From assembly GCA_000756795.1 (NCBI GenBank), contig CCSI01000008.1, positions 1-64,000 of the forward strand: a stretch of DNA of 64,000 bases, written 5' to 3'. Each line of letters begins with the position of its first letter. Positions within the stretch are counted from its first letter, which is position 1. Source of the stretch: Qipengyuania vulgaris (lineage in GTDB: Bacteria; Pseudomonadota; Alphaproteobacteria; Sphingomonadales; Sphingomonadaceae). This document shows, in pieces, positions 950 to 17,457 of the stretch. Position numbers and translations under genes: made by a program. The notes beneath the pieces are model-generated. The model saw only the letters and a list, made by a program, of their open reading frames with translations, did not search any database and was not told where the DNA came from.

Positions 950-2446
950 TCAGCAAATTCCGTAATCCGGGAAGTTGGCGGCGCAGGCCTCCAGCATCGC
1001 TTGCACCGCATCCACGTTTGCTGCCTCGATCTGCGGCGGCAGGACCTGAAGCTTATCTGCCGGGGGAAAGCAGCCGTAACCTGCAAAAAGGCTATGCCAG
1101 CTCATGGAAGAATAGGCCGGCTGCGCACCGTAAATGCGCCTCACTGCTTCGCCGATATCCTTGTGGGTGAACCACGAGGTCATCATGTCCTTGAGCGTTT
1201 CGGGCAGTGAGTGGTTGCCCGCGTTCTCGCACCAGTATTCGGTGTCGGACCGTCCGTTCAGCCGATAGTGCCCGACGATGTAATCGCGGATACCATCGTA
1301 ACGTTCGGCGACCGAGCGGTTGAATTGGACGCGGTGCTCGGGCGTGAACCCGGCTGCGGCAAAGGCATGGGCAAATTGCTGCGCGGTATCGATGACGATG
1401 TGGAGCGCGGTGGCCTCGAGCGGTTCGATAAAGCCTTGCGAAAGGCCCACCGCGAGACAATTGCGCGTCCAGCTGTCCTCGACGCGGCCCACTTTCATCG
1501 AAAGGACGCGCGCCTCGCCATTGTCGCCCTCGGTCCCGATAGCGCGGCGAAATTCGGTTTCTGCGTCCTCGTCCGAGATATGGCGCGAGGAATAGACATA
1601 TCCGTTGCCGATGCGCGTTGTGAGCGGGATCGACCAGCGCCAGCCTGCTGACATCGCAAAACTCTCGGTCTGCGGTTTGAACGGGTCGTCGTGCTGCGTG
1701 GGCATGACGACAGCGCGATCGTTGAAGAGGTTCTCGCCGAAGGAAATGAAGCGCGCACCAAGCTTTTGCTGGGCGAGCAACGAGGCAAACCCCGAGCAGT
1801 CAATGAAGAAGTCGCCTTCGATGCGCTGGTCGTCTTCGCACAGGAGGGCGGCGATATCGCCATCGCCGCTGATCTCGACCTCGATGACCTTTAAGGGCTT
1901 GTGTTCAATCCCCCGCGCCACGGCCCATTCGCGCAAATAACCGCCGAGCTTGTGCGCGTCGAAGTGGTAGCCGTAGCTGGGGGGGAAGGGGAATGTGCCG
2001 GCAGGTTGCGGGCTCTTGCGTGCCTCGGCCAGCTTTGCGGCGAGGAACCAGTCGTCAGGGTGGGCGGGTACGTCCGCGCCGCGCCGCCGCAGCGCGCAAT
2101 TGCGGGTAAAGCCGGGTTCGCTGTGCAAATCGACCGGGCCGGGGAAGGGGTGGAAGTAGCTTTCGAAAGCCGGTTTTTCACTCCAGCCGGTGAAGCGAAT
2201 GCCGAGCTTGTAGGTCGCATCGCAAGCCTCCATCCACTCCGCCTCGTCGATGCCGAGGTGGTCGAAGAAGGCCTTCAATTGCGGGGTCGACCCTTCGCCC
2301 ACGCCAATAATCCCGATGGCCGGGCTTTCCACCACCGTGATGCGCGGGTCATGCGCTTCCCACTCCTTGTGGAGCAGGCAGGCAGTCATCCAGCCCGCGC
2401 TGCCCCCGCCAAGGACGACGATATGCGGTGGGGCGGGCGAACTCAC
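950..2446 (-). CDS. Flavin-dependent tryptophan-halogenase family protein (first of two)
   Basis: The 498-residue protein belongs to the tryptophan halogenase family (FADH2-dependent, PF04820 type). Visible features are the FAD motif GGGSAGW at residues 13-19, a lysine at about 80 in DATYKLGI (the position of the catalytic Lys of PrnA/RebH), the family signature WRWSIP, and GFIEPLEAT, which carries the catalytic Glu. All key residues are therefore present and an active halogenase is plausible. The start is GTG, overlapping the TGA of the upstream GH97 gene (GTGA), so translation is probably coupled. It is the last gene of a starch-utilisation operon. The natural substrate is unknown; relatives near TonB receptors in other bacteria have been assayed mainly as indole halogenases. 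Confidence 0.88.
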   Translation of the reverse strand: MSSPAPPHIVVLGGGSAGWMTACLLHKEWEAHDPRITVVESPAIGIIGVGEGSTPQLKAFFDHLGIDEAEWMEACDATYKLGIRFTGWSEKPAFESYFHPFPGPVDLHSEPGFTRNCALRRRGADVPAHPDDWFLAAKLAEARKSPQPAGTFPFPPSYGYHFDAHKLGGYLREWAVARGIEHKPLKVIEVEISGDGDIAALLCEDDQRIEGDFFIDCSGFASLLAQQKLGARFISFGENLFNDRAVVMPTQHDDPFKPQTESFAMSAGWRWSIPLTTRIGNGYVYSSRHISDEDAETEFRRAIGTEGDNGEARVLSMKVGRVEDSWTRNCLAVGLSQGFIEPLEATALHIVIDTAQQFAHAFAAAGFTPEHRVQFNRSVAERYDGIRDYIVGHYRLNGRSDTEYWCENAGNHSLPETLKDMMTSWFTHKDIGEAVRRIYGAQPAYSSMSWHSLFAGYGCFPPADKLQVLPPQIEAANVDAVQAMLEACAANFPDYGIC

Positions 2447-4476
2447 CCCAAGGGCACGAATTCGATGGCGAAACCGCCTGCAGGCGCGATCCGCAGCTCC
2501 AGCGTGTCTTCGCCGGTCACGGTGCGCGTTTCGACCTCCATCGCGTGGCGGTCGGCGCCCTGGCCATCGGCTGTCGCGCCGTCGCGCCAGATGGTGGCCG
2601 TGTAGCTTTTGCCCGGGTCTAGGAAGGACAATGGCACGTTCGCCATGCGCTCGGCCTCGTCGGTGACCGCGCCGACATACCAGTTGAGCGTGTTGCGGTC
2701 GCGGCGGGCGATGACGGCGTATTCACCGACTTTGCCGTCGACCAGCATGCTCTCGGCCCAGTCGGCCGGCACCCGCTTCACGAAATCGAGCGCGCGCGGG
2801 TATTTGACGAGGTTCTCGGGCAGGTCGGCGACCATCTGGATGGGCGAATAGATGGTGACATAGAAGGCCAGCTGGCGCGCGAGAGTGCTCGGCAAGTCGG
2901 GTGCGGTCGCACCGCGTCCCTCGAGCGAGAGGACGCCCGGCGTATAGTCCATTGGACCCGACAGCATGCGCGTGAAGATGAGCTCGGGCACATGACCAGG
3001 GTCGTTCTTCGGCACCGCCCATGCATCATATTCCGCCCCGCGGGCGCCTTCGCGGCTTACCCAGTTGGGATAGGTGCGGCGCAGGCCGGTATCCTTGATG
3101 GGCTCGTGCGGGTTGACTGCGATGCCGTGCTCGGCAGCCTCTTTGACAACCTTCAGGTGATGGCGGACCATTTCCTGCCCGTCGTGCCAGACGAAGGTCT
3201 CGCCCCAGCCGCCTTCACCGGCGGGCGCGATGATACCGCCCGCATCGGCGACATAGCCGCTCTTCACGGCATCGATGCCGAGGCTTTCGTAGAAGGCCAT
3301 CGCGTCTACGAGTTGCTCTTCATAGACCTTGATATTGCCGCCGGTCTCGTGGTGGCCGATGATGCGGACACCCTTCTCTTCGCCGTAGCGGGCGACTTCG
3401 GCGATATCGAAATCGGGATAGGCTTCGGTGAAGCTGAACTCGCGGCCATTGCCGAACCAGTTGCCGTCCCAGCCCTTGTTCCAGCCTTCGATGAGGACGC
3501 CGCGGAAACCGTGCTCGGCGGCGAAATCGATGTATTTCTTCGCGTTCTCGGTGGTCGCGCCGTGCTTCTCTCCGCTGGCCCAGCTCTCGATATCGAGATG
3601 CATCCCCCACCAGATGCCGATGTATTTGTGCGGCGTGAACCAGCTGACATCGCCAAGCTTGTTGGGCTCGTTCAGATTGAGCGTGATGTCGCTTTCGAAC
3701 AGCCCCTTAGCGTTCGAGGAAATGAGCACCGTGCGCCACGGCGTGTTGAACGCACCTTCGCGCACGACCTTGGCCCCACGCGGAGAGGGTGCAAGCTGGG
3801 CGCGCAGGCGCGTGCCGTCGATGCGTTTCAGCCACATGCCCGAATAGTCGACCAGCGCCGCTTCGTGGAACGAGAGGTGCGTGCCATTTTCGAGCACCAT
3901 GGTCACCGGCGTGTGCACGGTCGAGAGCGCGCTGATGGGGGTCTTCGAATAGAGGTATTCGTAGCGGTTCCAGTCGCCCGCCGGGATGGACCATGCCGTG
4001 CCGTCGCTGGCGATGTTGAACTCGGTCAGCTCGTCAGCAATGTTGTAGAAACGCTGCTCCGGATTGTCGGGGAACTCGGTGCGGAAACCGATGCCGTCAT
4101 CGAAAACGCGCAGGCGCACGGTAATCTCGCGCGCGGCTGCGTCCTTCTGCTGGAAAGTGAGCGCGAGTTCGTTGTGGCTGTCGGTCACCCACTGCTGCTC
4201 GCCCCAGGGCTGTTCCCAAGTCGAATTGTGTGCCTGCTCTCGAAACGCCACGACTTCGAAATTGCGCCGCATCGGGTCGGCATCGGTGAAGTTGAAGCCG
4301 ATGTTCGACTTGGCGATGATGGGCACGCCGTCGCGGGTGACCTCGTAATAGGGAATGCCTTCGCCATCGGCATCGAGCGTGACCTTGATGCGGCCGTCAG
4401 GCGAAGACACCGTCTCTGCCTGCGCGGCGGACAGCGGGAGGAGGGAGGCGCTCAGGAAAAGTGCCAGGCGTTTCAT
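2443..4476 (-). CDS. Glycoside hydrolase family 97 alpha-glucosidase (SusB-like)
   Basis: The protein has 677 residues from the ATG at 4476, preceded by GGAG. The frame stays open upstream, but that extension lies over the coding sequence of the next gene and is not used. A signal peptide is clear (MKRLALFLSASLLPLSAAQA). The GH97 layout is present: an N-terminal beta-sandwich, a (beta/alpha)8 barrel with HHETGG, VNPHEPIKDTG and REGARGAEYD carrying the conserved glutamates of inverting SusB-type enzymes, and a C-terminal beta domain. It probably releases glucose from maltodextrins in the periplasm. It overlaps the alpha-glucosidase gene upstream by ATGA and the halogenase downstream by GTGA. 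Confidence 0.93.
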   Translation of the reverse strand: MKRLALFLSASLLPLSAAQAETVSSPDGRIKVTLDADGEGIPYYEVTRDGVPIIAKSNIGFNFTDADPMRRNFEVVAFREQAHNSTWEQPWGEQQWVTDSHNELALTFQQKDAAAREITVRLRVFDDGIGFRTEFPDNPEQRFYNIADELTEFNIASDGTAWSIPAGDWNRYEYLYSKTPISALSTVHTPVTMVLENGTHLSFHEAALVDYSGMWLKRIDGTRLRAQLAPSPRGAKVVREGAFNTPWRTVLISSNAKGLFESDITLNLNEPNKLGDVSWFTPHKYIGIWWGMHLDIESWASGEKHGATTENAKKYIDFAAEHGFRGVLIEGWNKGWDGNWFGNGREFSFTEAYPDFDIAEVARYGEEKGVRIIGHHETGGNIKVYEEQLVDAMAFYESLGIDAVKSGYVADAGGIIAPAGEGGWGETFVWHDGQEMVRHHLKVVKEAAEHGIAVNPHEPIKDTGLRRTYPNWVSREGARGAEYDAWAVPKNDPGHVPELIFTRMLSGPMDYTPGVLSLEGRGATAPDLPSTLARQLAFYVTIYSPIQMVADLPENLVKYPRALDFVKRVPADWAESMLVDGKVGEYAVIARRDRNTLNWYVGAVTDEAERMANVPLSFLDPGKSYTATIWRDGATADGQGADRHAMEVETRTVTGEDTLELRIAPAGGFAIEFVPLG

Positions 4477-6068
4477 GCGGATATCTCCGTTATAATCGCC
4501 GCGTGGGGCGGCAATTCGCTGTGGCTCGCGCCATTGATAGCCATCAGGGTCTCGCCATGGCAATCCCCAAGAGCGATGGTTTCGCTGCCGAGGTTGAAGC
4601 GGAATTGCAGCTTCTGTCCCTCTGCTTCGCGGGTCATGAGGAGCAGGTCGCCTTCGTGGCTGCATTCGGTGACCGCGCCGTGTTGCATGGCCGGGTTCGC
4701 CTTGCGTAGGGCTATGGCGGCGCGGGTGAAGGCGAGGAGCGAATTTTCGTCCGCGTCCTGCGTCTCGACCGGGCGGGTGCGGTTGTCCTCGCCTACGGGA
4801 AGCCACGGCTCGGTGCTGCCGAAACCGGCGCAGCTGCTCGAGTTCCACGGCATGGGTGTGCGCGCGCCGTCGCGGCTCAGCGTCAGCGGCCAGTTGGCAA
4901 TCGCCTCGGGGTCGTGAAGCTGGTCGAAGGGTATGTCGACCTGCGTCAGTCCCAGTTCCTCGCCGTAATAGAGGATGGCATTGCCGCGCAGGCTCATCAG
5001 GAGCAGCGTCTTGAGGCGGGCAAATGCGTCGCGCTCTTCCGGCTCGCACCAGCGGCTGAGCGCGCGGGGCGCATCGTGGTTCTCGAACGCCCAGCTCGGC
5101 CAGCCGAGCCCGTCTTCGTCCGGCCAGTCGCGCAGCGAGGCGCAGACCAGCTGTGGGGTCAGCTTTTCGGCATAAAGGAAAGCGAAGCTGTAGGCCGAGT
5201 TGAGATGGCTTTCGCCCTCGGTGAACAGGCGCATCTCGCGTATGGCATCATCGCCGCCGACTTCAGCGACAGTGAAGATGCCTTCATATTCGTCGGTCAG
5301 CGCCCGGATGCGCTCGATGAAGGCCGGGATGTCGGCGTGGCCCTGGTTGTATTTCTTGAGCTGGAAATCGAAGGGCCGTGTGCGAGGCTTGTCGGTGGCA
5401 GGCGCGGGCGGATTGTCGCGCAATTCCGGGTCGTGCATCGCGAAATTGAGCGCATCGATACGGTAGCCGTCGACCCCGCGCTCGAGCCAGAAGCGCATCA
5501 CGCCTAGGATGGCGTCCTGCACCTCCCGATTGTGCATGTTCAGCTGCGGCTGGCTGCTGAGGAAATTGTGCAGGTAATACTGCCCGCGCCGCGCATCCCA
5601 GGTCCACGCCGGGCCGCCGAAGACCGACTGCCAGTTGGACGGAGGCGAGCCATCGGGCTTGGCATCAGCCCAGACATACCAGTCGTGCTTGGGGTTATCT
5701 CGGCTGGACCGGCTTTCCTCGAACCATGCGTGCTCGTCCGAAGTGTGCGAATAGACCTGGTCGATGAGAACCTTGAGGCCAAGTTCGTGCGCGCGGGCGA
5801 CCAGCGTGTCGAAATCCTCGAGCGTGCCGAAAATGGGGTCGACATCGCGATAGTCCGACACGTCGTAACCGAAGTCTTTCATCGGCGACTTGAAGAAGGG
5901 CGAAATCCAGATGCAGTCGATACCGAGGCTCGCCACATGCGGCAGGCGCTCGGTGATGCCCGGAAGGTCCCCGATGCCGTCGCCATTGGAATCGCGGAAG
6001 CTGCGCGGATAGATCTGGTAAATCGTCGCGCCCTTCCACCAGGGGTTCTGGGTGTTGGGAACGTTCAC
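4473..6068 (-). CDS. GH13 alpha-glucosidase (oligo-glucosidase type)
   Basis: This is a 531-residue enzyme of glycoside hydrolase family 13. The conserved regions are visible in order: DQVYSH (region I), QPQLN (region V of alpha-glucosidase/oligo-1,6-glucosidase types), GYRIDALNF with the nucleophile Asp, TVAEVGG with the acid/base Glu, and FENHDAPR with the transition-state Asp. There is no signal peptide (MNVPNTQNPWWKGATIYQ), so it probably acts in the cytoplasm on maltose and short maltodextrins imported by the MFS transporter. The GTG start at 6068 overlaps the stop of the upstream amylase (GTGA); the in-frame extension upstream lies inside that gene. Its own stop overlaps the GH97 start (ATGA). 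Confidence 0.93.
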   Translation of the reverse strand: MNVPNTQNPWWKGATIYQIYPRSFRDSNGDGIGDLPGITERLPHVASLGIDCIWISPFFKSPMKDFGYDVSDYRDVDPIFGTLEDFDTLVARAHELGLKVLIDQVYSHTSDEHAWFEESRSSRDNPKHDWYVWADAKPDGSPPSNWQSVFGGPAWTWDARRGQYYLHNFLSSQPQLNMHNREVQDAILGVMRFWLERGVDGYRIDALNFAMHDPELRDNPPAPATDKPRTRPFDFQLKKYNQGHADIPAFIERIRALTDEYEGIFTVAEVGGDDAIREMRLFTEGESHLNSAYSFAFLYAEKLTPQLVCASLRDWPDEDGLGWPSWAFENHDAPRALSRWCEPEERDAFARLKTLLLMSLRGNAILYYGEELGLTQVDIPFDQLHDPEAIANWPLTLSRDGARTPMPWNSSSCAGFGSTEPWLPVGEDNRTRPVETQDADENSLLAFTRAAIALRKANPAMQHGAVTECSHEGDLLLMTREAEGQKLQFRFNLGSETIALGDCHGETLMAINGASHSELPPHAAIITEISA

Positions 6069-7909
6069 TTCGCAGTATCCGATACGCGGCAAACGGCCCA
6101 GCCGAATGCCGGGATGGTGAAGGCGGCGCTGCCCGGGGCCGTGACCGCCGCGGGGCAATTGCCGGCGAGGCTTTCCAACTCGCGTGCCTCGTAACCGAGC
6201 ATGACATTGGCGCTTCGCGGAGCAGCGGTGGTGTTGAACACTGCGAGGTATTCGGTCCCGTCATCGGGATCGAAGCGGCTAACGGCGAAAATGCCCGGCT
6301 CCTGTTCGTAATGGCGCACTTCCTGGCGCCCGCGGGTTAAGGCAGGATGTGCCCGGCGCAGGCGTGAGAATTCGGCAATCAGCTGATAGAGCGGGTGGGC
6401 GGTGTCGAAATTGCTGGTGGCGGTGGTCGCGTCGGTGCCGATGAGGTTGTTGTCGTTGTAGACCGCCGTTTTCGAAGGGAACATGTCTTCGCGGGCCAAC
6501 TGGTCGTTGCCGTCGCCGACAAAGCCCTGTTCATCGCCGTAATATATGACGGGTGAGCCGCGCAGCGTCAGCATCATCGCATGCCCGAGCTTCACGCGGG
6601 CGAGCAGTTCGTCCTGCGAGATATCGGGCTTGTCCCATTTTATGAGCGTCGAGAAGCGCCCCATGTCGTGATTGCCGAGGAAAGTCGGCAGGCCGCGCGC
6701 AGCTTCCTCGCCGCCTTCGTAAAGCACGTCGCCATCAAACATGTGTGCGAGCACCACCGTCCCTTTGTCGCGGCCTAGGAGCTCGCGCATCGAGGCCTGA
6801 AAGGCGAAGTCGAGCACGGAGGGCAGTTTGTCGCGCCGGGTGTATTCGGCGATATAGCCGTTCTCGGGGATGTCCTTGTAGACCTCGCCGAACATGTGGA
6901 AGTTGGGAATGCCGCTTTCCTCGGCGACAGCCTCCAACGCGGGCACGAACTCCTGCCAAAAGCCCGGGTCGACGTGGCGCGCGGTGTCGATGCGAAAACC
7001 GTCGACGCCCGTATCGCGCACCCAGTTCGAAAAGATCTCGATCATTCCCGCACGTACGCGCGGATGCTCGGTGAAGAGATCGTCGAGGCCGGCGAAGTCG
7101 CCGTGACGGCTGTCCTCACCAGTGAACGAGCTGTTTCCGCGATTATGGTAATAAATCGGGTCGTTGAGCCAGGCGGGGACCTTTACGTCCTTCTCCGCAG
7201 CGGGCACTTCAGGGATGTAGGCGTAGTTCGGGTCGGTCAGTTTGGCGAAGTTTTCTGGACTGCTGTCGCCATCGCCCATGAAGCCTTCGTTGATGCGCGG
7301 GCCATCGGGGCCGCCGCGGGTCGAATAGGGGTAGTCGCCCTTGCTGCGGTATTCGTAATTCGTCACGTCACCGTCCGCGTAGCGGATGACGTCGGCGGTG
7401 TGGTTGGTGATGATGTCCATATAGACCTTCATCCCGCGCGCATGCGCCGCGTCGACGAAGGTCTTGAATTCCTTGTAAGTGCCAAAGTGGCTGTCGGGCC
7501 GGGTGAAATCGGTCACCCAATAGCCGTGATAGCCTGCGCTTTCGTCGCCATCAGGTCCTTGCACGGGCTTGTTGTGGAAGATGGGCGCAAACCAGATCGC
7601 GGTGACGCCTAGACCTTCAAGATAGTCGAGCCGCTTGGTCAATCCGACAAGATCGCCGCCATGAAAGAAGCCTTTCGCGGTCGGGTCGTAGCCCGTCGCG
7701 AGCCGATCGCCTTCATATCCGCCGAGGTCGTTGGAGGTGTCGCCGTTCTCGAAACGGTCGGGCAGGACGAAATAGACAATTTCCTCGCTCGGCAGGCGAT
7801 CGCGGAAAATTTCTGCTTCTGACTGCGCGGACGCGGGCGCTGCAGGCGTTTGCGCTGTGGCGCAGGCGGCAAGGCCGAGGGCGAGAAGCGGAAGGCATTT
7901 GCGGTACAT
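6065..7909 (-). CDS. GH13 alpha-amylase, lipoprotein
   Basis: The 614-residue protein has a lipoprotein signal peptide ending in the lipobox LAAC (residues about 13-16). It is therefore membrane-anchored, in the periplasm or at the cell surface. GH13 regions are present: MDIITNH, GFRIDTARH with the nucleophile Asp, FGEVYKD with the acid/base Glu, and LGNHDMGRF with the third acid. A C-terminal beta domain follows. It likely trims starch or long maltodextrins near the TonB-dependent receptor. The ATG overlaps the halogenase stop by one base (TGATG), and the downstream gene starts inside its stop (GTGA). A cyclomaltodextrinase-like or pullulanase-like specificity cannot be excluded. Confidence 0.92.
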   Translation of the reverse strand: MYRKCLPLLALGLAACATAQTPAAPASAQSEAEIFRDRLPSEEIVYFVLPDRFENGDTSNDLGGYEGDRLATGYDPTAKGFFHGGDLVGLTKRLDYLEGLGVTAIWFAPIFHNKPVQGPDGDESAGYHGYWVTDFTRPDSHFGTYKEFKTFVDAAHARGMKVYMDIITNHTADVIRYADGDVTNYEYRSKGDYPYSTRGGPDGPRINEGFMGDGDSSPENFAKLTDPNYAYIPEVPAAEKDVKVPAWLNDPIYYHNRGNSSFTGEDSRHGDFAGLDDLFTEHPRVRAGMIEIFSNWVRDTGVDGFRIDTARHVDPGFWQEFVPALEAVAEESGIPNFHMFGEVYKDIPENGYIAEYTRRDKLPSVLDFAFQASMRELLGRDKGTVVLAHMFDGDVLYEGGEEAARGLPTFLGNHDMGRFSTLIKWDKPDISQDELLARVKLGHAMMLTLRGSPVIYYGDEQGFVGDGNDQLAREDMFPSKTAVYNDNNLIGTDATTATSNFDTAHPLYQLIAEFSRLRRAHPALTRGRQEVRHYEQEPGIFAVSRFDPDDGTEYLAVFNTTAAPRSANVMLGYEARELESLAGNCPAAVTAPGSAAFTIPAFGWAVCRVSDTAK

Positions 7910-9420
7910 CAGTGTGCTCCTTGCGCGGCGCTGCGCACGATATCCTGGAGAGTGTCGAGGTGGCGGGGCATTTGCTTCACCTCCTCGACCAACGCGATTT
8001 CGGTCCCGTCGAGGAGGGCCGTAAGGTCCTGATCGGACATGTTATCGGCCAGCGGGTTGTACGCCTCGGCTTCGACACCCTGTCCCACGAGGACCTGGAA
8101 CCAGCCGGTTTCGGTGAAGAGTTCTTCGTGCTCGCGGTGGATGAAGCCGGCAGCCTTCCAGTTGGCGAGCTTGTCTTCGAGCGTGGCGGGCAGCGTCAGA
8201 TTGCGCATGTCGTCCCAAAAGGCTTCGCCCTCGCGCTCGTTCGCGGAGTAATGCAGCACGAGGAAGTCGCGGATGCGGGTCCATTCGAAATCGGCCTGCG
8301 CGTTGAACCAGTCGCGAATTGCAGGTTTCGTCTCGCCTTCGGGCAGGACCGAGAGGAAACGGCTGATGGCGCTCTGGACAAGGTGGATGCTGGTCGATTC
8401 CAGCGGCTCCATGAATCCTGCGGCAAGGCCCAGCGCAAGGCAGTTGTGCGACCAGTGCTTGCGGCGCTTGCCAGTGGTAAAGCGGATGGGTCGCGGGTCG
8501 CCCTGTGGTGCGCCGTCGAGATTGGCGAGCAGCTTGTCGCTCGCCTCGTCATCACCCAGATGGGCCGAGGAATAGACGAGGCCGTTGCCGATGCGGTGTT
8601 GCAAGGGAATGCGCCATTGCCACCCGGCCTTGCGGGCGATGGAGCGGGTATAGGGCGTGAAGTCGCCGCCGCCCTCACAAGGCACCGCCATGGCGCGGTC
8701 ACAGGGCAGGAAACTGGTCCAGTCTTCGAAGCCTGCGCCCAAGGTTTGCTCGATGAGCAGCCCGCGAAAGCCCGTGCAGTCGATAAAGAAATCGCCCGCA
8801 AGGACGGTGCCGTCTTCCAGCTTCAAAGCGGTTATGTCGCCGCTCTCGCCGTCCTGTTCGACGCTGGCAATCAAGCCCTCTTGCCGCTCTACGCCCTGCG
8901 CTTCGGCGAAGCGGCGCAGATAGGCGGCATAGAGCCCGGCGTCGAAATGGTAGGCATAGGGCATTTCCGGCGATTGCGGCGTGCGTCGACCGCGCTGCAT
9001 GCGCATTGTTCGCGCGGCCAGCTCGTTCAGCGAATAGCGGATGAGCGGCTTGGCAATGCCCTGCTTCTGCGCGCGCAGCCAGTAATGGTGGAAGGGAAGA
9101 AGGCCTGCGCCACGGCCGATATTGCCGAAGGCATGCATGTAGCTTTCGCCTTCGCGCAGCCAGCCGTCGAACTCGATGCCGAGCTTGAAGCTGCCCTTGG
9201 TCTCGCGCAGGAACTCAGCCTCGTCGAGCCCCAGCGCCCCGTTGAACAAATGGATTTGCGGAATGGTGGCCTCGCCCACGCCGACCGTGCCAATGGCCTC
9301 GCTCTCGACGAGCGTAATTTTCGTGGACTTCGGCGCGAAGCGAGCGAGCGCTGCTGCCGCCATCCATCCGGCGGTCCCGCCACCGGCAATCACGATATGT
9401 CTGTCTGTGCGGTCTGCCAT
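7909..9420 (-). CDS. Flavin-dependent tryptophan-halogenase family protein (second of two)
   Basis: This is a second, clearly diverged halogenase of about 503 residues. It has the FAD motif GGGTAGW, a catalytic-type lysine in GSFKLGIEF, the signature WQWRIP, and GFMEPLEST with the conserved Glu. The ATG at 9420 is preferred because GGGAG lies 8 nt upstream; an ATG two codons earlier (9426) has almost no spacing. With the 9420 start the lysine becomes residue 79, the number it has in PrnA and RebH. The gene lies between the TonB receptor and the lipoprotein amylase, and overlaps the amylase by TGATG. Sequence differences from the first halogenase argue against a recent duplication. Substrate unknown. 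Confidence 0.88.
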   Translation of the reverse strand: MADRTDRHIVIAGGGTAGWMAAAALARFAPKSTKITLVESEAIGTVGVGEATIPQIHLFNGALGLDEAEFLRETKGSFKLGIEFDGWLREGESYMHAFGNIGRGAGLLPFHHYWLRAQKQGIAKPLIRYSLNELAARTMRMQRGRRTPQSPEMPYAYHFDAGLYAAYLRRFAEAQGVERQEGLIASVEQDGESGDITALKLEDGTVLAGDFFIDCTGFRGLLIEQTLGAGFEDWTSFLPCDRAMAVPCEGGGDFTPYTRSIARKAGWQWRIPLQHRIGNGLVYSSAHLGDDEASDKLLANLDGAPQGDPRPIRFTTGKRRKHWSHNCLALGLAAGFMEPLESTSIHLVQSAISRFLSVLPEGETKPAIRDWFNAQADFEWTRIRDFLVLHYSANEREGEAFWDDMRNLTLPATLEDKLANWKAAGFIHREHEELFTETGWFQVLVGQGVEAEAYNPLADNMSDQDLTALLDGTEIALVEEVKQMPRHLDTLQDIVRSAAQGAH

Positions 9421-9483
9421 GGTCATGTCTCCCGTTCCCTCGACCGCAAATGCCTACACGAAGGCTGCGGCGATGGTATCGGG

Positions 9484-9519
9484 GGCAGGGCTGCCTGTAG
9501 GAGGAGCGACAGCCCTGCC
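9484..9519 (-). promoter_or_regulatory. Intercistronic hairpin downstream of the TonB receptor gene
   Basis: GGCAGGGCTG (9484-9493) and CAGCCCTGCC (9510-9519) form a perfect 10-bp stem with a 16-nt loop. It lies between the receptor stop and the next gene. No T-run follows on the minus strand, so it looks like an mRNA-stabilising or partial-attenuation hairpin, not a full terminator. Confidence 0.5.
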
Positions 9520-9531
9520 AGCCACGATTGA

Positions 9532-12372
9532 TCAGAACTTGTACGAAGCGCCGATCAGGTAAGTGCGACCATACTCTTCGTAGTCGATGATCTGCTCGCG
9601 ATCGTCGGCCTGGTAGTTCACGAAGGGTTCGTCGGTGAGGTTGAGCGCCTGCAGCGTGAGCGACAGGCCGTTGTCGAAGCGATAGCCGATCTGTGCGTCG
9701 AAAATCGATTCGTCATAGGTCTGGCGGAACGAGCGGCTGGCCGAAATGCCGATGAATTCGGCGAGGAAGCCGGTGCGGTAGCGGTGGCTGACACGCGCTT
9801 CGAAGCCGCTGTTTTCATAGTAGACGGTCGAGTTGACCACCCACTTCGACAGGCCCGGCGTATCGACATTGAATGTCTCGCCGTTCGACAGGGTCACATC
9901 AAGCTTGCTCTCGGTGAACGAAGCGCTGGTCTGGAAACCGAAGCCCGGAAGTACGCCGGTCATCTCGCCGATGGGCAGCGATGCCGTGGCTTCGACACCG
10001 AAGATGTAGCCTTCGGCACCATTGTCCGGACCGCCCACGAGACCCAGCGTCTGGCCGCCGGTGGCCGCAAATGCTGCCTGCTGTTCATCAGTCAGCAGCG
10101 GCACGAGATAGGAGAAATCGCGGATCACCGGAGCGTTCGGGTTAACGAAATCGTCGAGCCACTTGTAGTAGGTCGCAACCGCCACGTAACCTTCACCGCC
10201 AAGGTAGTATTCGAGCGAAGCGTCGACACCGTCTGCGACATAGGGGCGAAGCTGCGGGTTACCGCCGCCGCCGCTGAAGATGGAGTTGAACCCGTCCGCC
10301 GGAGGCATGTTGGCGATGCTCGCGTTATACGAGGCATTGAGCTGGTCCATGCGGGGACGTGCGAGCGTGCGGGCCGCGCCAAGGCGAAGCTTGAGATCTT
10401 CCGCAAGCTCGAAGTTGAACGTCGCGCTCGGCAGGATGTGTGCATATTCATCACCCTGCGAGACCGGGGTGACTTCAGCACCGATGCCACCGTTCGATTC
10501 AAAACCGTCCGAGCTTTGGTCGGTGAAGACAAGCTGCACGCCAACGTTACCGTCGAAATAGACCGAACCGAGTTCGCCCGACAGGTCCGTGCGGATGTAG
10601 CCGGTCCATACCGTTTCATCGACGGTCCAGTCCCCCGGATAGGGCAGGTCGGAGCTGGTGATGTCGGTGAGGATGTATGTGCCGTTGTTGAGCAGCACGA
10701 ACGGGTCATAGGCGATTTGCGGGCCGAAACCGAGGAAGCCGAGCGTGTCGACCGAGCCGACAATCGCGGACTGCGGAATCGGCGCGCGAAGCACCGCACC
10801 CTCGTCGCGATAGGGTGTGCCGTTGCCAGCCAGGCTCAGGAAGTTCTGGATGATGTCGCGGCTTTTCGTGCGGTCTTCGAACGAGACACCGATAACGATG
10901 TTCTCGAGAAGTCCGCGGTCCAGCTTGCCGACCACTTCACCACGGGCCGTCCACAGTTCGTCCTCGGTGTTGGTGTCGTTGATGAAGCCGGCCTGCACGA
11001 TGCCGTCACGGCCCCAACCGCGCGGGTCGGTCAGCTGGATGATGTCGGTGTTCGTGTAGTCGACCGTATTGGTGAAGCGGAACGGGAAGCCGTCTGCGCT
11101 ACGCTGGTAGGTAACGGTATCGCCTTCGTTCGGTCCGCTGGCCGCATAGTTGAGACCGGAATAGCTTTCGATCTGCTGCAGGCGGCGGTCCGAACGCGAA
11201 TAGGCCACGTCCATATTGAGAAGGACGGCATCGTTCTCGTATTTCGTATTCCAACCGATGGCGAAGGTTTCGGTATCCTTGCGGTCGAAGTCGTTACGCA
11301 CGACCGGCTGGACGTTCTCGAAGGTGACGCTGTCAGCAAGGCCGGGGCCGCCGTTGACGTCGGTGATGGTCGTGCCGGCGCCCCAGCCGGGGTTGAGCGG
11401 GAATTCCATGCCGCGCAGCGCGATCTTCTCGCGATAGTCGGCGTAGAACACGTCGAGCGTGGTGTTCCATTCAGCGCTCGGCTGGAATTCCAGCGTGCCG
11501 AAGACTCCCAGACGGTCGAGGTCGCCCGACTTGGAGAAAGGCTTCATGCCGCCAAGCACGAGCGCGCCTTGCGAGCCGTCGGGAGCATTGCCGCTATCGA
11601 CATCGCCATCGCCGAGCTCGGGATAACCCCATGCGTTGAAACGTTTCACCTGGCTTGGGCTCGACTGGTAGGCGACGCCGAGTGCAAGGCCGATAGTGTC
11701 ATCGGCGAACTGGTCGACATAGGTGCCGGTCGCACGATAGCCCCAACCGTCGAAATCGGGGTTGATAGCGCCGTCCTCGTTGAATTCGGCGCGGGCCGAA
11801 ACCGATACGATACGCTCGCCCTTGGCCAGCGGACGGATGGTGCGCAGGTCCACGGTGCCGGCAAGGCCCTGGCCGATGAGACCGGCGTAGGGAACCTTGT
11901 AGACCACACCCTGGTCAATGAGTTCGGAAGGATACTGGTCGTATTCGACGGCGCGGTTGTCGCCCGAGGACACCAGCTGGCGACCGTTGAGAAGCGAGGT
12001 CGAATAGTCCGGGCCGAGGCCGCGGATGGATAGGCTTTGTGCACGGCCGTCGATACGCTGGACCGCGAGGCCGGGAAGACGGCCGAGGGTTTCTGCAATC
12101 GAGACGTCGGGCAGCTTGCCGATGTCTTCTGCACTGAATGCTTCGGCGATGACCGGCGAGGCGCGCTTCAGGTTGACGGCGGTTTCGAGAGCCTGGCGGT
12201 AGCCTTCGACGACGATGACATCGGCACCAGCACCATTGTCTTCTTCGGAAACGTTTTCATCATCGGGTTCGACCGATGCTTCCTGAGCGCTGGCCGGCGC
12301 GGCCATGGTGGCCAGGGCGATGGTGATAGCCGAGGCGCTGAATCCCCCGACAAGCTGCTTGCGAAATGCCAC
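9532..12372 (-). CDS. TonB-dependent receptor, probable maltodextrin uptake
   Basis: The outer-membrane receptor has 946 residues. The GTG start at 12372 is chosen because GGGAG lies 8 nt upstream and a proper signal peptide follows (hydrophobic stretch ending APASAQ); upstream in-frame codons lie in the leader. A short acidic linker precedes the plug domain (IGKLPDVSIAETLGRLPG, RGLGPDYSTSLLNGR). The beta-barrel ends in YLIGASYKF with a terminal aromatic residue, as expected for outer-membrane insertion. The neighbours (amylases, glucosidases, LacI regulator, sugar transporter) point to maltose/maltodextrin import like Caulobacter MalA, but substrate is inferred from context only. It is probably the first gene of the minus-strand operon. 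Confidence 0.92.
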   Translation of the reverse strand: MAFRKQLVGGFSASAITIALATMAAPASAQEASVEPDDENVSEEDNGAGADVIVVEGYRQALETAVNLKRASPVIAEAFSAEDIGKLPDVSIAETLGRLPGLAVQRIDGRAQSLSIRGLGPDYSTSLLNGRQLVSSGDNRAVEYDQYPSELIDQGVVYKVPYAGLIGQGLAGTVDLRTIRPLAKGERIVSVSARAEFNEDGAINPDFDGWGYRATGTYVDQFADDTIGLALGVAYQSSPSQVKRFNAWGYPELGDGDVDSGNAPDGSQGALVLGGMKPFSKSGDLDRLGVFGTLEFQPSAEWNTTLDVFYADYREKIALRGMEFPLNPGWGAGTTITDVNGGPGLADSVTFENVQPVVRNDFDRKDTETFAIGWNTKYENDAVLLNMDVAYSRSDRRLQQIESYSGLNYAASGPNEGDTVTYQRSADGFPFRFTNTVDYTNTDIIQLTDPRGWGRDGIVQAGFINDTNTEDELWTARGEVVGKLDRGLLENIVIGVSFEDRTKSRDIIQNFLSLAGNGTPYRDEGAVLRAPIPQSAIVGSVDTLGFLGFGPQIAYDPFVLLNNGTYILTDITSSDLPYPGDWTVDETVWTGYIRTDLSGELGSVYFDGNVGVQLVFTDQSSDGFESNGGIGAEVTPVSQGDEYAHILPSATFNFELAEDLKLRLGAARTLARPRMDQLNASYNASIANMPPADGFNSIFSGGGGNPQLRPYVADGVDASLEYYLGGEGYVAVATYYKWLDDFVNPNAPVIRDFSYLVPLLTDEQQAAFAATGGQTLGLVGGPDNGAEGYIFGVEATASLPIGEMTGVLPGFGFQTSASFTESKLDVTLSNGETFNVDTPGLSKWVVNSTVYYENSGFEARVSHRYRTGFLAEFIGISASRSFRQTYDESIFDAQIGYRFDNGLSLTLQALNLTDEPFVNYQADDREQIIDYEEYGRTYLIGASYKF

Positions 12373-12511: not shown

Positions 12512-12543
12512 ACAGCCTATGCATGCACCATCGGGTGACGCGA

Positions 12544-12572
12544 ATAGTTTAGCGATTTTAAAGAGTTGTCAG
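12544..12572 (-). promoter_or_regulatory. Candidate promoter of the TonB receptor operon
   Basis: On the minus strand CTGACA (12572-12567) is separated by 17 bases from AACTAT (12549-12544). Transcription would begin near 12537, giving a leader of about 165 nt that contains the candidate operator at 12503-12511. Neither hexamer is a perfect match to consensus, so this is tentative. Confidence 0.35.
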
Positions 12573-13261
12573 TCGAGAAAAAGGTTGAGAGTGAGGCGCC
12601 CCGAGGCAGGATTGGCGTCGGGTTCGAATTCTTCCGGCAGGTGCGCGCAGTGCAAGGTGTTGCCGCGATAAATGACCATGGAATTGAAAGTGTCTGACAC
12701 GGTATAGGTCTGCTCGAACATCGCTGTGTCGCCGGAGATGTACCCTGCTTCTGGCAGGCCATGCTCGGCAACGGCGCTTTCCAGTTTCTCGCGATATTCG
12801 TCATACCTGCTTTCGCAGACGCTTTCGAAGCCGGTCGCGCGTTGGCGATAGAAAGCGGTGCCCCCTCGCGTCGAGCGGTCTAGATACAGGAGGACCGCGA
12901 GGCGGCTGTCCTCCAAGCCATCGAAATGAGGCAGGCGCTGGATGGGCGCGAGGTTGTCGGGCCGCTTGGTGACCACCGAAAGGAAACATTCGCGGTAGCG
13001 CGGGGGGCGATCCAGCGCGAACACCTCCTGCAGCATGGGTAGCAGCGGATCGACCAGCGGCATGGCTATGCGCTCGGATACTCCGGCCCGGATGCCCGGG
13101 TAGAATTCTCCCATCGGCCGATATTTGTGCTGGGCCGCGATTTCGATGACCCGCTCGCTGTCCGCGAGCGTGTTTTCGACCGTTACGATCGGCTGCTGCT
13201 CGCGTCCGAAAGTGGCGGTGGAGACCGAAGCAACGGATGAAAGGGCAAGTGGGCTGGTCAT
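12569..13261 (-). CDS. DUF6445 family protein (2-oxoglutarate/Fe dioxygenase-like)
   Basis: The 230-residue protein has no signal peptide. It resembles DUF6445 proteins, which commonly sit beside TonB receptors and tryptophan halogenases in sphingomonads and Caulobacter relatives. LPHFDG (an HxD motif), a later histidine in GNTLHCAHL and the closing SGRLTLNLFLD resemble the metal- and 2-oxoglutarate-binding pattern of cupin-fold dioxygenases, but activity is unproven. It is divergent from the LacI gene, with 112 bp between them. Its stop lies just before the TonB receptor leader, and the receptor probably has its own promoter overlapping the end of this gene. It may belong to the same regulon. 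Confidence 0.75.
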   Translation of the reverse strand: MTSPLALSSVASVSTATFGREQQPIVTVENTLADSERVIEIAAQHKYRPMGEFYPGIRAGVSERIAMPLVDPLLPMLQEVFALDRPPRYRECFLSVVTKRPDNLAPIQRLPHFDGLEDSRLAVLLYLDRSTRGGTAFYRQRATGFESVCESRYDEYREKLESAVAEHGLPEAGYISGDTAMFEQTYTVSDTFNSMVIYRGNTLHCAHLPEEFEPDANPASGRLTLNLFLD

Positions 13262-13373: not shown

Positions 13374-14408
13374 ATGGGACGCAAGCCGACAGGACGGCCA
13401 ACCAGTTTCGATATTGCCTATGCGGCCGGGGTCTCCCAGCCCACCGTCAGCCGTGCGCTGCGCGGCGACCGGTCGGTGAGCGAGAAGACCCGTGCGAAGA
13501 TCCAGCAGATTGCGCGCGACCTCAATTACACGGTCGACAAGAATGCCTCCTCGTTGCGTTCGCAGCGTTCGAACACGATAGCGCTTCTTTTCTTCGAGGA
13601 TCCGACGCCAGATCAGAGCAGGATCAACCCCTTTTTCCTCGCCATGCTGGGTTCGATTACGCGGGCGACGGCGGACGAGGGGTTAGACTTGCTCATTTCC
13701 TTCCAGCGGATGGAAGACGACTGGCACGTCCAGTACCAGGACAGCCACCGCGCCGACGGGCTTATCCTCCTGGGCTATGGCGATTACACCAAATACCGCG
13801 AGCGGATGGACCAGCTCGCGCGGCAGGGAACGCATTTCGCGCGCTGGGGCTCGGTGTCGAGCGACAGCAGCGGGGTAACAGTGGGCACCGACAATGTCGG
13901 GGCGGGACGGCTGGCTGGCGAGCATCTGCTCCAGCAGGGGCGGCGCAAGATCGCCTTCCTTGGCCATGCAGACGACCATTATCCCGAGTTTGCCGGGCGC
14001 TATTCGGGGCTGTGTTCGGCGATGATCGACGCAGGGCTTGAGCCCGACCGCGCGCTCCAGTTCGATGCGCTAACCACCGAAGAAGAAGGGTGGGCTGCGG
14101 CCAAGGCACTGCTCGACAGCGGGCAGGAATTCGACGCGATTTTTGCCGCCAGCGACCTTATCGCCATTGGAGCCATGCGCGCGCTGGCCGATGCGGGGCG
14201 CAAGGTTCCCGGCGATGTGGCAGTGGTCGGTTTCGACGATATTCCGGCTGCCAGTATGACGACACCGCCGCTTACCACGGTGATGCAGGACATTACCGGA
14301 GCAGGCAAAATCCTCGTCGAGACGCTGCTTGCCCAAGTAGAAGGGCGCGACCTTCCGCCGCGCAAACTGCCGGGCAAGCTAATCGTGCGAGGAAGCAGCG
14401 TCAGCTGA
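13374..14408 (+). CDS. LacI-family transcriptional regulator
   Basis: The 344-residue repressor has an N-terminal LacI helix-turn-helix (residues about 10-32, [19 protein letters not shown]), a hinge helix ([12 protein letters not shown]) and a periplasmic-binding-like sugar domain. The start is ATG with GGGGAGAG upstream. It lies between the minus-strand starch operon and the plus-strand transporter/amylase operon, and is the obvious candidate controller of both. The effector is probably a malto-oligosaccharide or a derivative, by context. The TACGTATAC repeats at 12503-12511 and 14419-14427 are candidate binding sites. Confidence 0.93.
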
Positions 14409-14504: not shown

Positions 14505-16058
14505 ATGACTATGGACGCGACGGTCGCGAACGCCGGTGGGCGCGAAAAACCCCGGCAGGGATTCGCCGGACTCTGGAACATCAGCTTCGGCTTTTTCGGC
14601 ATCCAGATCGGATTCGCGCTGCAAAACGCGAATATGAGCCGGGTCTTCCAGACGCTGGGCGCGAGCATGGACGATCTCCCCGCCTTGTGGGTCGCCGCAC
14701 CGCTCACCGGTCTCATTGTGCAGCCGATCATCGGCCACCTGTCGGACAAGACGTGGAACAGGCTGGGCCGCCGCCGCCCGTATTTCCTGACCGGAGCAAT
14801 CTTCGCCGCGCTTTCGCTCTTCGTCATGCCATTAAGCCCCGCCTTCGCTTACCCGCTATTCTTCGCGGCAGCGATGCTCTGGGTGCTCGATGCATCGCTC
14901 AACGTTTCGATGGAGCCGTTCCGCGCCTTCGTGGGCGACATGCTCAATACCGACCAGCACAGCGCCGGCTATGCGGTGCAGACCGCCTTTATCGGTGCGG
15001 GCGCGGTCGTGGGTTCGATCTTCCCCTATTTGCTCGAGCAGATGGGCGTGGCCAACGTCGCGCCAGGCGGAGGCATTCCCGACACGGTGAAATACAGCTT
15101 CTGGTTCGGCGCATTCGCCCTGTTCACCGCGGTCATGTGGACCATCGTGACCACCAAGGAATTCTCTCCCGAGGAAATGGCGGCATTCGGCGAGGAGGCC
15201 GAGGCGGACGCCTCGCAGCCGATCAGGGCGCTTGCGGCGAAATCGACCGCTGCCAGCGCCGTTTGGATATTCGCCGGCGCGGCGCTCGTTCTGCTTGTCC
15301 AGGCGCTCGATTTGCAGAAGGAGATCTATCTTCTGGGCGCGTTGTTGGTCGTCTATGGCCTTCTCAGCGCACTTGCGATCTCGATGGCGAAGAGAGGCCA
15401 GTCTGCCAACATGCTCTCCAGCATCGTGGGCGATTTCGCGGGCATGCCCGAGGTGATGAAACGCCTCGCGCTGGTGCAGTTCTTCAGCTGGTCGGCGCTG
15501 TTCATCATGTGGATCAACACCACGCCCGTGGTCACCCAATATGTCTTCGGCAGCACCGACACGACCAGCGCCGCCTATAACGAGGGCGCGAACTGGGTGA
15601 ATGTGCTCTTCACCGTCTACAACGGCGTGGCTGCAATCGCCGCGCTCGCGCTGATACCGGTGCTGAGCCGCAAGTTCGGGCAGGTGATGACCCACTCGAT
15701 CTGCCTGACGCTGGGCGCGATCGGCTTCCTGATGTTCTTCTTCGTCCGCGATGCAACGACGCTGTTGCTGGCAGAGGTGGGCATCGGCATCGCATGGGCG
15801 AGCATTCTTGCCATGCCCTATGCCATCCTCGCCTCGAACCTGCCGCAGGCCAAGCTCGGCATCTACATGGGGCTGTTCAACATCTTCATCGTCGTGCCGC
15901 AGCTGCTTGTGGCGACCGTCATGGGGCAGATCATGCTCTGGCTGTTCCCGGGCGAACCCATCTGGACGATGCTATTCGCTGCGGGCTCGTGGATAGTCGC
16001 GGCTATCGCCATGCAGCGTGTCAGCGCCGCCATCCCGCAGGAGACTCCGCATGCGTAA
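14505..16058 (+). CDS. MFS/GPH-type sugar transporter (maltose/maltodextrin by context)
   Basis: This is a 517-residue inner-membrane transporter with about 12 hydrophobic segments. The first segment ([19 protein letters not shown]) and the loop motif [17 protein letters not shown] are typical of the glycoside-pentoside-hexuronide/sucrose-maltose branch of the major facilitator superfamily, known for MalT-like and SucP-like carriers in these bacteria. ATG at 14505 follows GAGG with 5-nt spacing. The gene overlaps the next one by 8 bases, so they form an operon. It likely brings maltose or maltodextrins released in the periplasm into the cytoplasm, where the GH13 alpha-glucosidase can act. Confidence 0.9.
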
Positions 16059-17457
16059 GTTTATCGCCGCCACTTCAGCCCTCGGATTACTTGCAGCTTG
16101 CGCTCCGGTCGAAAGGCCCAAGCTCAATTCGGCAGCAGCTCCCATCTGGCAACCCAAGGATGTCGTCAGCATCGAGCATCCCGAATGGTCCCGCGATGCG
16201 GTGCTTTACCAGATAAACACCCGCCATTTCACCGAGGAAGGGACCTTCCGCGCTGCGCAAGAGCAGCTTCCGCGGCTGAAGGAACTGGGGGTCGACATCC
16301 TGTGGCTGATGCCCATCCACCCGATCGGCGAAGAAAATCGCAAGGGCACGCTCGGCAGCCCCTATTCGGTTCGCGATTATTACGATGTGAACCCAGAATT
16401 TGGCACGCGCGAAGACTTCCGCGCCTTCGTCGATGCCGCGCATGCACAAGGCTTCAAGGTCATCCTCGACCTCGTCGCCAACCACACCGCGTGGGACAAC
16501 CGCCTCCGCAGCGAACATCCCGACTGGTACGAGAAAAGCTGGGATGGCAGTTTCCGTCCCACGCCCTGGTGGGACTGGTCCGACATCATCGACCTCGACT
16601 GGAGCAAGCCGGGCGTGCGTGAACATGTCGGCGGGGCGATGGAATATTGGGTGCGCGAATACGGTATCGACGGCTATCGCGCCGATGTCGCAGGTTACGT
16701 TCCGCTCGACTTCTGGGAGACCATGCGCGGGCGGCTCGATGCCATCCGTCCGGTCTTCATGCTCGGTGAAGTCCAGCAGACCGCATGGCATCACAAGGCC
16801 TTCGACGCGACCTATGCCTGGGACTGGCACAACACGACCAAGAACGTCGCGCAGGGCAAGGGCAACGCCACCAGCTTCTATGGCTATTACGCCGAGAACG
16901 AGAGCCTCTGGCCTCGGCAGGCCATGCGCATGACCTATATCGAGAATCACGACAGCAATGCGTGGGAAGCCACGATGGAGGAGAATTACGGTCCTGCGCT
17001 CGAAGCCATGACCGCGCTCTCCTTCACCGGCGAGGGCCTGCCGCTCATCCATAACGGGATGGAGGCGTGCAACGCCAAGCGGCTCGAATTCTTCGAGCGC
17101 GACCCCATCGACTGGGACCAGGACCCGAATTGCCAGTATGGCGATTTGCTTGCCCGCCTCATCACTTTCCGCAAGGCCAATCCGGCGCTGGAGAACGGCC
17201 AGTGGGGTGCGGTGATGCACAAGGTCGAGAACTCCGCGCCCGAGCAATTGTTCGCATGGGTGCGACAGGAAGACGGCAACAAGGTGCTGGGGCTCTTCAA
17301 CATGAGCGACAGGCCGCTCACCGCCACTTTCACCGACGGATTGCCGCAAGGTCGCTACACCGATTTTTCTACCGGCAATGCAGTGAATATTGAGGCAGGA
17401 CATACGGTCGAACTACCAGCATGGGGCTATCGCCTGCTAAGTTCTGGCGGACGCTAA
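16051..17457 (+). CDS. GH13 alpha-amylase family lipoprotein
   Basis: This 468-residue enzyme starts at ATG 16051 inside the end of the transporter gene, with AGGAG 7 nt upstream. A lipoprotein signal peptide is present ([17 protein letters not shown]), so it is anchored in the envelope. GH13 signatures in order: DLVANH, GYRADVAGYVP with the nucleophile Asp, MLGEVQQ with the acid/base Glu, and YIENHDSN. It is shorter than the other lipoprotein amylase in the locus and lacks a large N-terminal domain. It probably hydrolyses malto-oligosaccharides outside the cytoplasm. Exact bond preference cannot be read from sequence. Confidence 0.9.
   Translation: MRKFIAATSALGLLAACAPVERPKLNSAAAPIWQPKDVVSIEHPEWSRDAVLYQINTRHFTEEGTFRAAQEQLPRLKELGVDILWLMPIHPIGEENRKGTLGSPYSVRDYYDVNPEFGTREDFRAFVDAAHAQGFKVILDLVANHTAWDNRLRSEHPDWYEKSWDGSFRPTPWWDWSDIIDLDWSKPGVREHVGGAMEYWVREYGIDGYRADVAGYVPLDFWETMRGRLDAIRPVFMLGEVQQTAWHHKAFDATYAWDWHNTTKNVAQGKGNATSFYGYYAENESLWPRQAMRMTYIENHDSNAWEATMEENYGPALEAMTALSFTGEGLPLIHNGMEACNAKRLEFFERDPIDWDQDPNCQYGDLLARLITFRKANPALENGQWGAVMHKVENSAPEQLFAWVRQEDGNKVLGLFNMSDRPLTATFTDGLPQGRYTDFSTGNAVNIEAGHTVELPAWGYRLLSSGGR

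Follow-up and report, generated by a model that had tools for sequence, protein, structure and literature searches.

A flavin-dependent halogenase linked to a TonB-dependent receptor in a starch operon of Qipengyuania vulgaris

Our question was why two flavin-dependent halogenases should be encoded among starch-degrading enzymes behind an outer-membrane receptor. The window is the whole stretch of Qipengyuania vulgaris DNA that was analysed, 64,000 nucleotides of contig CCSI01000008.1. A first-pass annotation had described a row of halogenase, GH13, GH13, GH97 and halogenase behind a TonB receptor, joined by four start/stop overlaps, and all of this proved exact when the junctions were read directly and the proteins were compared with Pfam. 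It had also remarked that halogenases of this family are tested mainly on indoles, which is true of the closest relatives that have been studied, according to the text of the two papers on them (PMC5945002; PMC7336383). Beyond that account lie an upstream DUF6445 gene, a divergent group of LacI, MFS and amylase genes, and a second pair of halogenases elsewhere in the genome.

The minus strand carries, in order, DUF6445, the TonB receptor, the first halogenase (HAL1), a secreted GH13, a cytosolic GH13, GH97 and the second halogenase (HAL2). The gene of the 230 aa DUF6445 protein (12569..13261; PF20043, 220 bits) is likely the first of the operon and is single copy in this genome. The TonB-dependent receptor (9532..12372) has the TonB plug and barrel domains by Pfam, scores 544 bits with TIGR01782 against a cut-off of 310, and is modelled with a TonB-receptor fold (pLDDT 85.6). 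Its start is the GTG at 12372, with an alternative ORF start possible at 12513, and it is MalA-type by gene context. HAL1 (7909..9426; 505 aa; PF04820, 607 bits), a BrvH/Xcc4156-like flavin-dependent halogenase with no signal peptide visible by eye, shares one base (TGATG) with the secreted GH13 amylase (6065..7909; PF00128, 217 bits), whose N-terminus has a lipobox-like LALGLAAC by eye. Next come the cytosolic, alpha-glucosidase-like GH13 (4473..6068; PF00128, 409 bits for a query that began at 6110), with a GTG start at 6068 that overlaps the preceding stop as GTGA, and GH97 (2443..4476), which starts at 4476 in an ATGA junction, has a signal peptide by eye and matches PF10566, PF14508 and PF14509 as N, catalytic and C domains (query 2446-4506). 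HAL2 (950..2446; 498 aa; PF04820, 424 bits), a second flavin-dependent halogenase from another branch than HAL1, closes the row with a GTGA junction at start 2446.

HAL1 is not coupled in this way to the receptor; a gap of 105 nt (9427..9531, minus strand) separates them. This gap contains a strong hairpin without a T-run and folds far better than its shuffles (9420-9535, RNA fold z -4.1), and z is below -2 in 27 of 40 homologous gaps when compared to mononucleotide shuffles. No site in it was among the listed terminators, and the structure likely lowers or stabilises the downstream message. We also considered a hidden precursor peptide and rejected it, as no room was seen for one in the gap or between the overlapping genes.

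On the plus strand from 13374, and divergent from the operon, are genes for a LacI-family regulator (13374..14408; PF00356, PF13377), an MFS sugar transporter (14505..16058; PF07690, PF13347) and a third GH13 (16018..17457, ORF taken from the first start codon; PF00128, 122 bits), at the position of which the Qipengyuania citrea replicon has an annotated alpha-amylase. The LacI gene is retained beside most of the starch loci drawn for comparison and likely controls the locus. The features of a starch or maltodextrin TonB locus, that is a TonB receptor, starch-active hydrolases, a LacI regulator and an MFS transporter, were all found. Judged from its sequence, the locus is probably a LacI-regulated operon for starch and maltodextrin uptake and digestion, in which the receptor would have a dedicated halogenase. 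Further along the plus strand, 18542-20449 encodes an EF-Tu-like GTPase fused to an APS kinase, which we take to be an ordinary CysN/C-type protein.

The FAD motif, the Lys, WxWxIP and the Glu of EPLE(S/A)T that the first-pass annotation had listed are present in both halogenases, with K81 and E343 as the catalytic residues of HAL1. The catalytic Lys and Glu together with WxWxIP are kept in 41 of 41 HAL1-position proteins, and the two catalytic residues in 28 of 29 HAL2-position proteins; the columns of the GxGxxG FAD motif and WxWxIP are kept in 41/41 and 28-29/29, respectively. The nearest structures of HAL1 are 9luq, 6y1w (Xcc4156) and 6frl (BrvH), with 442-505 bits, and PrnA follows with 281. 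HAL2 is not BrvH/Xcc4156-like, and its best matches are SttH (5hy5, 301 bits) and PyrH (2wet, 295 bits), with which it aligns to about 458-465. In a tree of 123 halogenases the labels HAL1, HAL2 and other position require 8 changes, compared to a shuffled mean of 55.8, and therefore the halogenases stay with their loci, something that one small-molecule product common to all would not require. HAL1 is in a largely locus-specific clade. The 26 HAL2 proteins that follow GH97 form one clade (SH-aLRT 100). This clade lies in a larger branch of 30 (support 98), to which the second-type halogenase of the genome's other receptor locus also belongs, so that both receptor loci of the window's genome hold one halogenase per deep branch. 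On our reading HAL2 represents the second deep branch and is inherited with the enzymes and the regulator.

Deviant members of this family occur in halogenase arrays beside receptors: Lys, Glu or both are gone from a single member, which often has an intact neighbour on either side. Among the 123 family halogenases five lack both catalytic residues, all of them in arrays elsewhere, and among 127 from named genomes eight deviate at one or both. By our own locus labels these deviating members are at L078:15306-17054, L118:9044-10564, L182:8593-10191, L114:6315-7910 and L117:2934-7316, and further at L229:6562, L231:6781, L247:6995, L263:8512, L272:6727, L273:8454, L276:3083 and L253:2. The seven deviating array members that were checked are still full-length PF04820 proteins.

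To see how regular the arrangement is, 149 genomes of the family were searched for GH97, of which 59 were positive at E<=1e-60. Retrieval of 60 of the 63 other GH97 places gave, with the window, 61 loci, and 45 of these are starch loci with a receptor. The first-pass annotation had proposed looking for the five-gene order in related genomes, and the full order HAL1-GH13-GH13-GH97-HAL2 is found in 26/45 starch loci, with at least one halogenase in 41/45. In 39 of the 45 a halogenase immediately follows the receptor on its own strand, and in 37 HAL1 is followed by the secreted GH13. These adjacency counts rest on home-made profiles and stop-to-stop frames, and the total of starch loci varies with the script rules (46, 45 or 44); the strictest rules (44 loci) give 37 receptor-HAL1 and 20 GH97-HAL2 neighbours, versus 39 and 26 by the 45-locus rules. 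The start-stop overlap of HAL1 and GH13 is kept in 35 of 37 homologous junctions and that of GH97 and HAL2 in 15 of 26 (with no start near the stop in 8), so the overlaps go beyond chance. The named Qipengyuania citrea replicon has the same gene order with four-base overlaps, and Erythrobacter sp. AP23 (L198) has it with DUF6445 in front. Loss of the halogenases from most homologous loci, which the annotation had set against its own reading, was not seen for HAL1; it is HAL2 that is less constant, since a halogenase after GH97 is absent in 19/45 and is found in neither of the two same-genus genomes examined (L127, L132). A contig titled Arthrobacter sp. TPD3018 (L212) has a Sphingomonas-like starch locus and is probably a mislabelled or contaminated record.

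The constant partner of HAL1 is the receptor and not the starch genes. A tie to starch as such, which the first-pass annotation had assumed, found no support. Related halogenases also occur behind the TonB receptors of GH3 loci, G6PD/EDD loci and others, and no halogenase is present in the three starch loci with another type of receptor (L137, L152 and L157, about 35% identity). In 20 halogenase-centred loci of the family, taken from the top of the match list, a receptor lies within 2.5 kb in 18 (16 by profile and two by Pfam), and the sugar genes beside the pair vary from GH3 to G6PD/EDD to starch. We also scanned named proteobacterial genomes, using the best 80 of 578 confirmed HAL1 relatives, a sample biased to HAL1-like ones, and 74 of these 80 have a TonB-type receptor beside or near the halogenase. 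It is directly upstream by a strict rule in 52, a recognised receptor lies at most 2.5 kb away in 14 more, and a TonB-type outer-membrane protein (PF25183 + PF00593) is directly upstream in 8 more; of the other six (L220, L222, L226, L253, L261, L264), some have the receptor farther off, some lie near a contig end, and some show no receptor. On this comparison of sequences HAL1 can be placed in a wide family of receptor-linked BrvH/Xcc4156-like halogenases. Such halogenases usually adjoin an outer-membrane receptor and not starch enzymes specifically, which suggests that the substrate has to do with the receptor.

Xanthomonas and other gammaproteobacteria have the halogenase behind a member of another TonB-type outer-membrane family (PF25183 + PF00593, mostly with CarboxypepD_reg), for example at L236:3379-6522 and L236:7976-9874 and in L233, L238, L249, L250, L257, L268 and L270. 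In the window's genome all four PF04820 genes lie in pairs beside 2 of the 20 TonB receptors, and these two receptors are the only ones of the 20 above the TIGR01782 cut-off. A rule that a TIGR01782 receptor means a halogenase thus holds in this genome, and it was rejected for the family, where it fails: TIGR01782 matches at E<=1e-80 occur in 126/149 genomes and PF04820 matches, some of them weak and with at most 10 candidates scored per genome, in 105/149.

The partnership is also visible in how the proteins diverge. Over 32 loci the partial distance correlation of HAL1 with the receptor is 0.46 (0/500 permutations as high), compared to 0.16 with the overlapping GH13 (15/500), 0.04-0.10 with the cytosolic GH13, GH97 and LacI, and -0.13 with the MFS transporter. 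Leaving out the window's HAL1 clade raises the receptor value to 0.56 (0/500). Where HAL2 is present too (19 loci, compared without a permutation test), the HAL1-receptor value of 0.39 is hardly above the 0.33 for HAL1 and GH13, and HAL2 tracks the cytosolic GH13, GH97 and LacI (0.48-0.52) rather than the receptor (-0.10). The HAL1-receptor correlation could also be explained by co-replacement of neighbouring genes. In the receptor tree halogenase-linked and unlinked receptors part with 7 changes (shuffled mean 23.7), a separation that is biased because linked rows were mainly found via halogenases and unlinked rows mainly via genomes without them.

A second kind of enzyme recurs beside these pairs. 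DUF6445 has H112, D114, H204 and R222 invariant in 32/32 aligned sequences, an HxD...H triad with a distal Arg. Foldseek with its AlphaFold model (pLDDT 95.7) gave 42 matches at E<=0.001, and 40 of these are 2OG-type oxygenases as judged by titles, with TM-scores for the structural matches of 0.34-0.54. From this model DUF6445 is predicted to be an Fe(II)/2-oxoglutarate dioxygenase. It occurs in 41/149 genomes, with strong matches (>160 bits) in 29 of those, and is in or near 6/45 starch loci. Since 19 of 32 stretches with strong DUF6445 (up to 20 kb each) contain a halogenase and 13 contain none, the tie is frequent and not strict. At the genome's other receptor locus Cupin_8 and SapC lie beside the halogenases, and elsewhere a TPR-2OG-FeII protein does. 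One strand of L109:5155-15181 has a receptor, a TPR/2OG-FeII oxygenase, a halogenase, G6PD and 6-phosphogluconate dehydratase in a row, which suggests a glucose uptake locus of the same kind. Sets of receptor, SapC and Cupin_8 without halogenase are seen at L298:9681-14548 (genome G129) and L300:8490-14369 (genome G115), and therefore SapC and Cupin_8 can accompany a receptor alone.

We infer from these associations that the target of HAL1 is a polypeptide specific to the locus, perhaps the receptor itself. Maltodextrin would relieve LacI, and the receptor, HAL1, the enzymes and HAL2 would be produced together. HAL1 would be a working cytosolic FADH2-dependent halogenase, drawing FADH2 from a general reductase along with O2 and halide, and probably brominating by analogy with its relatives, of which BrvH prefers bromide. 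Its substrate would be a polypeptide of the receptor system, halogenated at an electron-rich ring ahead of export or while export is under way. The oxygenases, DUF6445 here and Cupin_8 with SapC or the TPR-2OG protein elsewhere, may act on the same target. Taken whole, with the receptor just after its synthesis, or a protein involved in handling it, as the most likely target and the oxygenases sharing that target, this is a tentative reading that may well have to be given up.

Looking at the receptors themselves shows where this reading is most exposed. A tryptophan serving as universal target in halogenase-linked receptors was rejected, as none is conserved in all. W453 comes closest in one group; it is invariant in 42/42 rows of receptor alignment A3, is present in 90% of 109 halogenase-linked receptors of that group and in 0% of 23 linked ones in the other, and occurs in 0/22 unlinked receptors (numbered 501 in that comparison). 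In the receptor model it sits in a long, probably extracellular loop, where it would be beyond the reach of a cytosolic enzyme after export and may be explained as a sugar-stacking residue. Strict specificity of HAL1 for its receptor was rejected as well, since one HAL1 clade, that of the window, serves two receptor types about 40% identical, the common type in L135 and another in the window, L128, L139 and L156. Genome G129 does not appear in the list of 105 genomes in which PF04820 was matched, for which no more than 10 candidates were scored in each genome, and the two 20-kb stretches of it that were searched showed no halogenase remnant. Two of its receptors nevertheless belong to halogenase-linked clades; the one in L155 lies with the starch genes, the one in L298 with SapC and Cupin_8. 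Halogenation is therefore dispensable there. Its starch receptor retains W248, W453 and W844.

The main rival to the receptor as target is a diffusible halogenated aromatic, such as a bromoindole or a phenolic, that would serve as a weapon or signal during polysaccharide feeding, with the operon setting the timing only. BrvH brominates free indole and not free tryptophan, but its turnover of indole is slow (PMC5945002). Such an optional product would be expected to be missing at times, as in G129, where two loci are otherwise kept, and it could be made beside receptor loci with varied sugar genes. However, loci and positions keep their own halogenase clades, HAL1 follows the divergence of the receptor, and no gene for precursor supply, export or resistance was recognised in the operon, the sugar-type MFS aside. 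We consider this rival unlikely, if still worth serious attention.

Two further explanations seem to us quite improbable, and about equally so. In one, an imported aromatic or phenolic compound, borne on the glycan or a toxic companion of algal or plant polysaccharide, would be detoxified or made usable through halogenation or hydroxylation in the cytosol. This fits a link to outer-membrane uptake genes with varied sugar genes, and the neighbouring oxygenases would also suit catabolic chemistry. Starch has no aromatic moiety, yet 41/45 starch loci have a halogenase, and among the genes recognised in the window's genome at its two loci there is none for degrading aromatics. In the other, the proteins would be flavin enzymes that do not halogenate in the cell but act as hydroxylase or oxidase, or their linkage would be old co-inheritance with no functional tie. 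Array members without catalytic residues (5/123 lacking both, 8/127 one or both) and G129, which seems to live without any halogenase, agree with it, but the near-complete retention of Lys, Glu and WxWxIP at the HAL1 and HAL2 positions (41/41 and 28/29) does not, and plain inertia would hardly keep the adjacency across classes of Proteobacteria. Least likely of all, and very doubtful, is that the halogenases shield receptor-expressing cells from phages or toxins, by hypohalous acid or receptor alteration for instance. In its favour are the tie to TonB receptors with varied sugar genes and the presence of family members in phages, where HAL2 matched 66 of 50,697 records. Against it, the ten phage matches listed are only 31-36% identical, and Pfam recognised no defence-type gene in the operon.

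Returning to the receptor system as target, a broader version would be a receptor modification spread over the Proteobacteria. A halogenase pair encoded beside the receptor, one enzyme per deep branch, would halogenate and hydroxylate that receptor or its dedicated partner together with SapC and oxygenases of the Fe(II)/2OG or JmjC type, and BrvH and Xcc4156 would be strays from this system; this is speculative and we would not expect it to hold. Neither the enzyme family nor the kind of operon is new; what appears new is the general rule joining halogenase and receptor. We did not find this linkage in titles and abstract openings of the open literature, a search mostly outside the subscription journals. 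This group of halogenases is studied for biocatalysis, and the texts on BrvH and Xcc4156 state their native substrates as unknown (PMC5945002; PMC7336383). The genomic rule narrows the search for a substrate to receptor-related ones and can be tested by a few deletions and mass spectra. A halogenated receptor or other protein, if confirmed, would be a surprising kind of protein modification for common Gram-negative bacteria.

Several known systems can be compared with the locus. The starch and maltose loci of MalA-type or CUT in Caulobacter and Xanthomonas are enzyme-plus-receptor systems, which combine a TonB receptor with GH13, GH97, LacI and MFS as is the case here. A halogenase as a regular member of them is absent from the titles and abstract openings of the open literature searched; gene tables of Xanthomonas and Caulobacter receptor loci may contain 'tryptophan halogenase' entries. 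The free-tryptophan halogenases PrnA, PyrH, SttH and RebH share the family and the catalytic residues with HAL1 and HAL2, but reside in antibiotic gene clusters and are not known from receptor loci. The C-terminal part of PrnA holds the tryptophan, and the alignment with HAL1 ends at residue 426, thus this part has no clear match in HAL1. The peptide tryptophan halogenase of MibH type, named as PDB 5uao in the text of the Xcc4156 paper (PMC7336383), is of the same family (205 bits with HAL1, 208 with HAL2) and resembles the proposed action in halogenating a ring inside a polypeptide. It is far more distant from HAL1 than BrvH and Xcc4156 are, and no precursor peptide gene that would fit it was seen in the operon.

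The closest likeness is to BrvH (6frl) and Xcc4156 (6y1w), with which HAL1 aligns over nearly its whole length (442 and 478 bits) and shares the Lys, Glu and WxWxIP. They differ in having been described from in vitro screening, and the word TonB is absent from the main text of both papers (PMC5945002; PMC7336383). The gene of BrvH does have a second halogenase gene upstream (PMC5945002), and an open site and a peptide substrate have been proposed for Xcc4156 and BrvH (PMC7336383). Over a stretch of some 200 residues, Xcc4156 shares 62% identity with the halogenase of this genome's second receptor locus and 74% with one in a Lysobacteraceae locus with the order HAL-SapC-Cupin_8-HAL, and among the 276 halogenase frames compared it is most like those of such loci.
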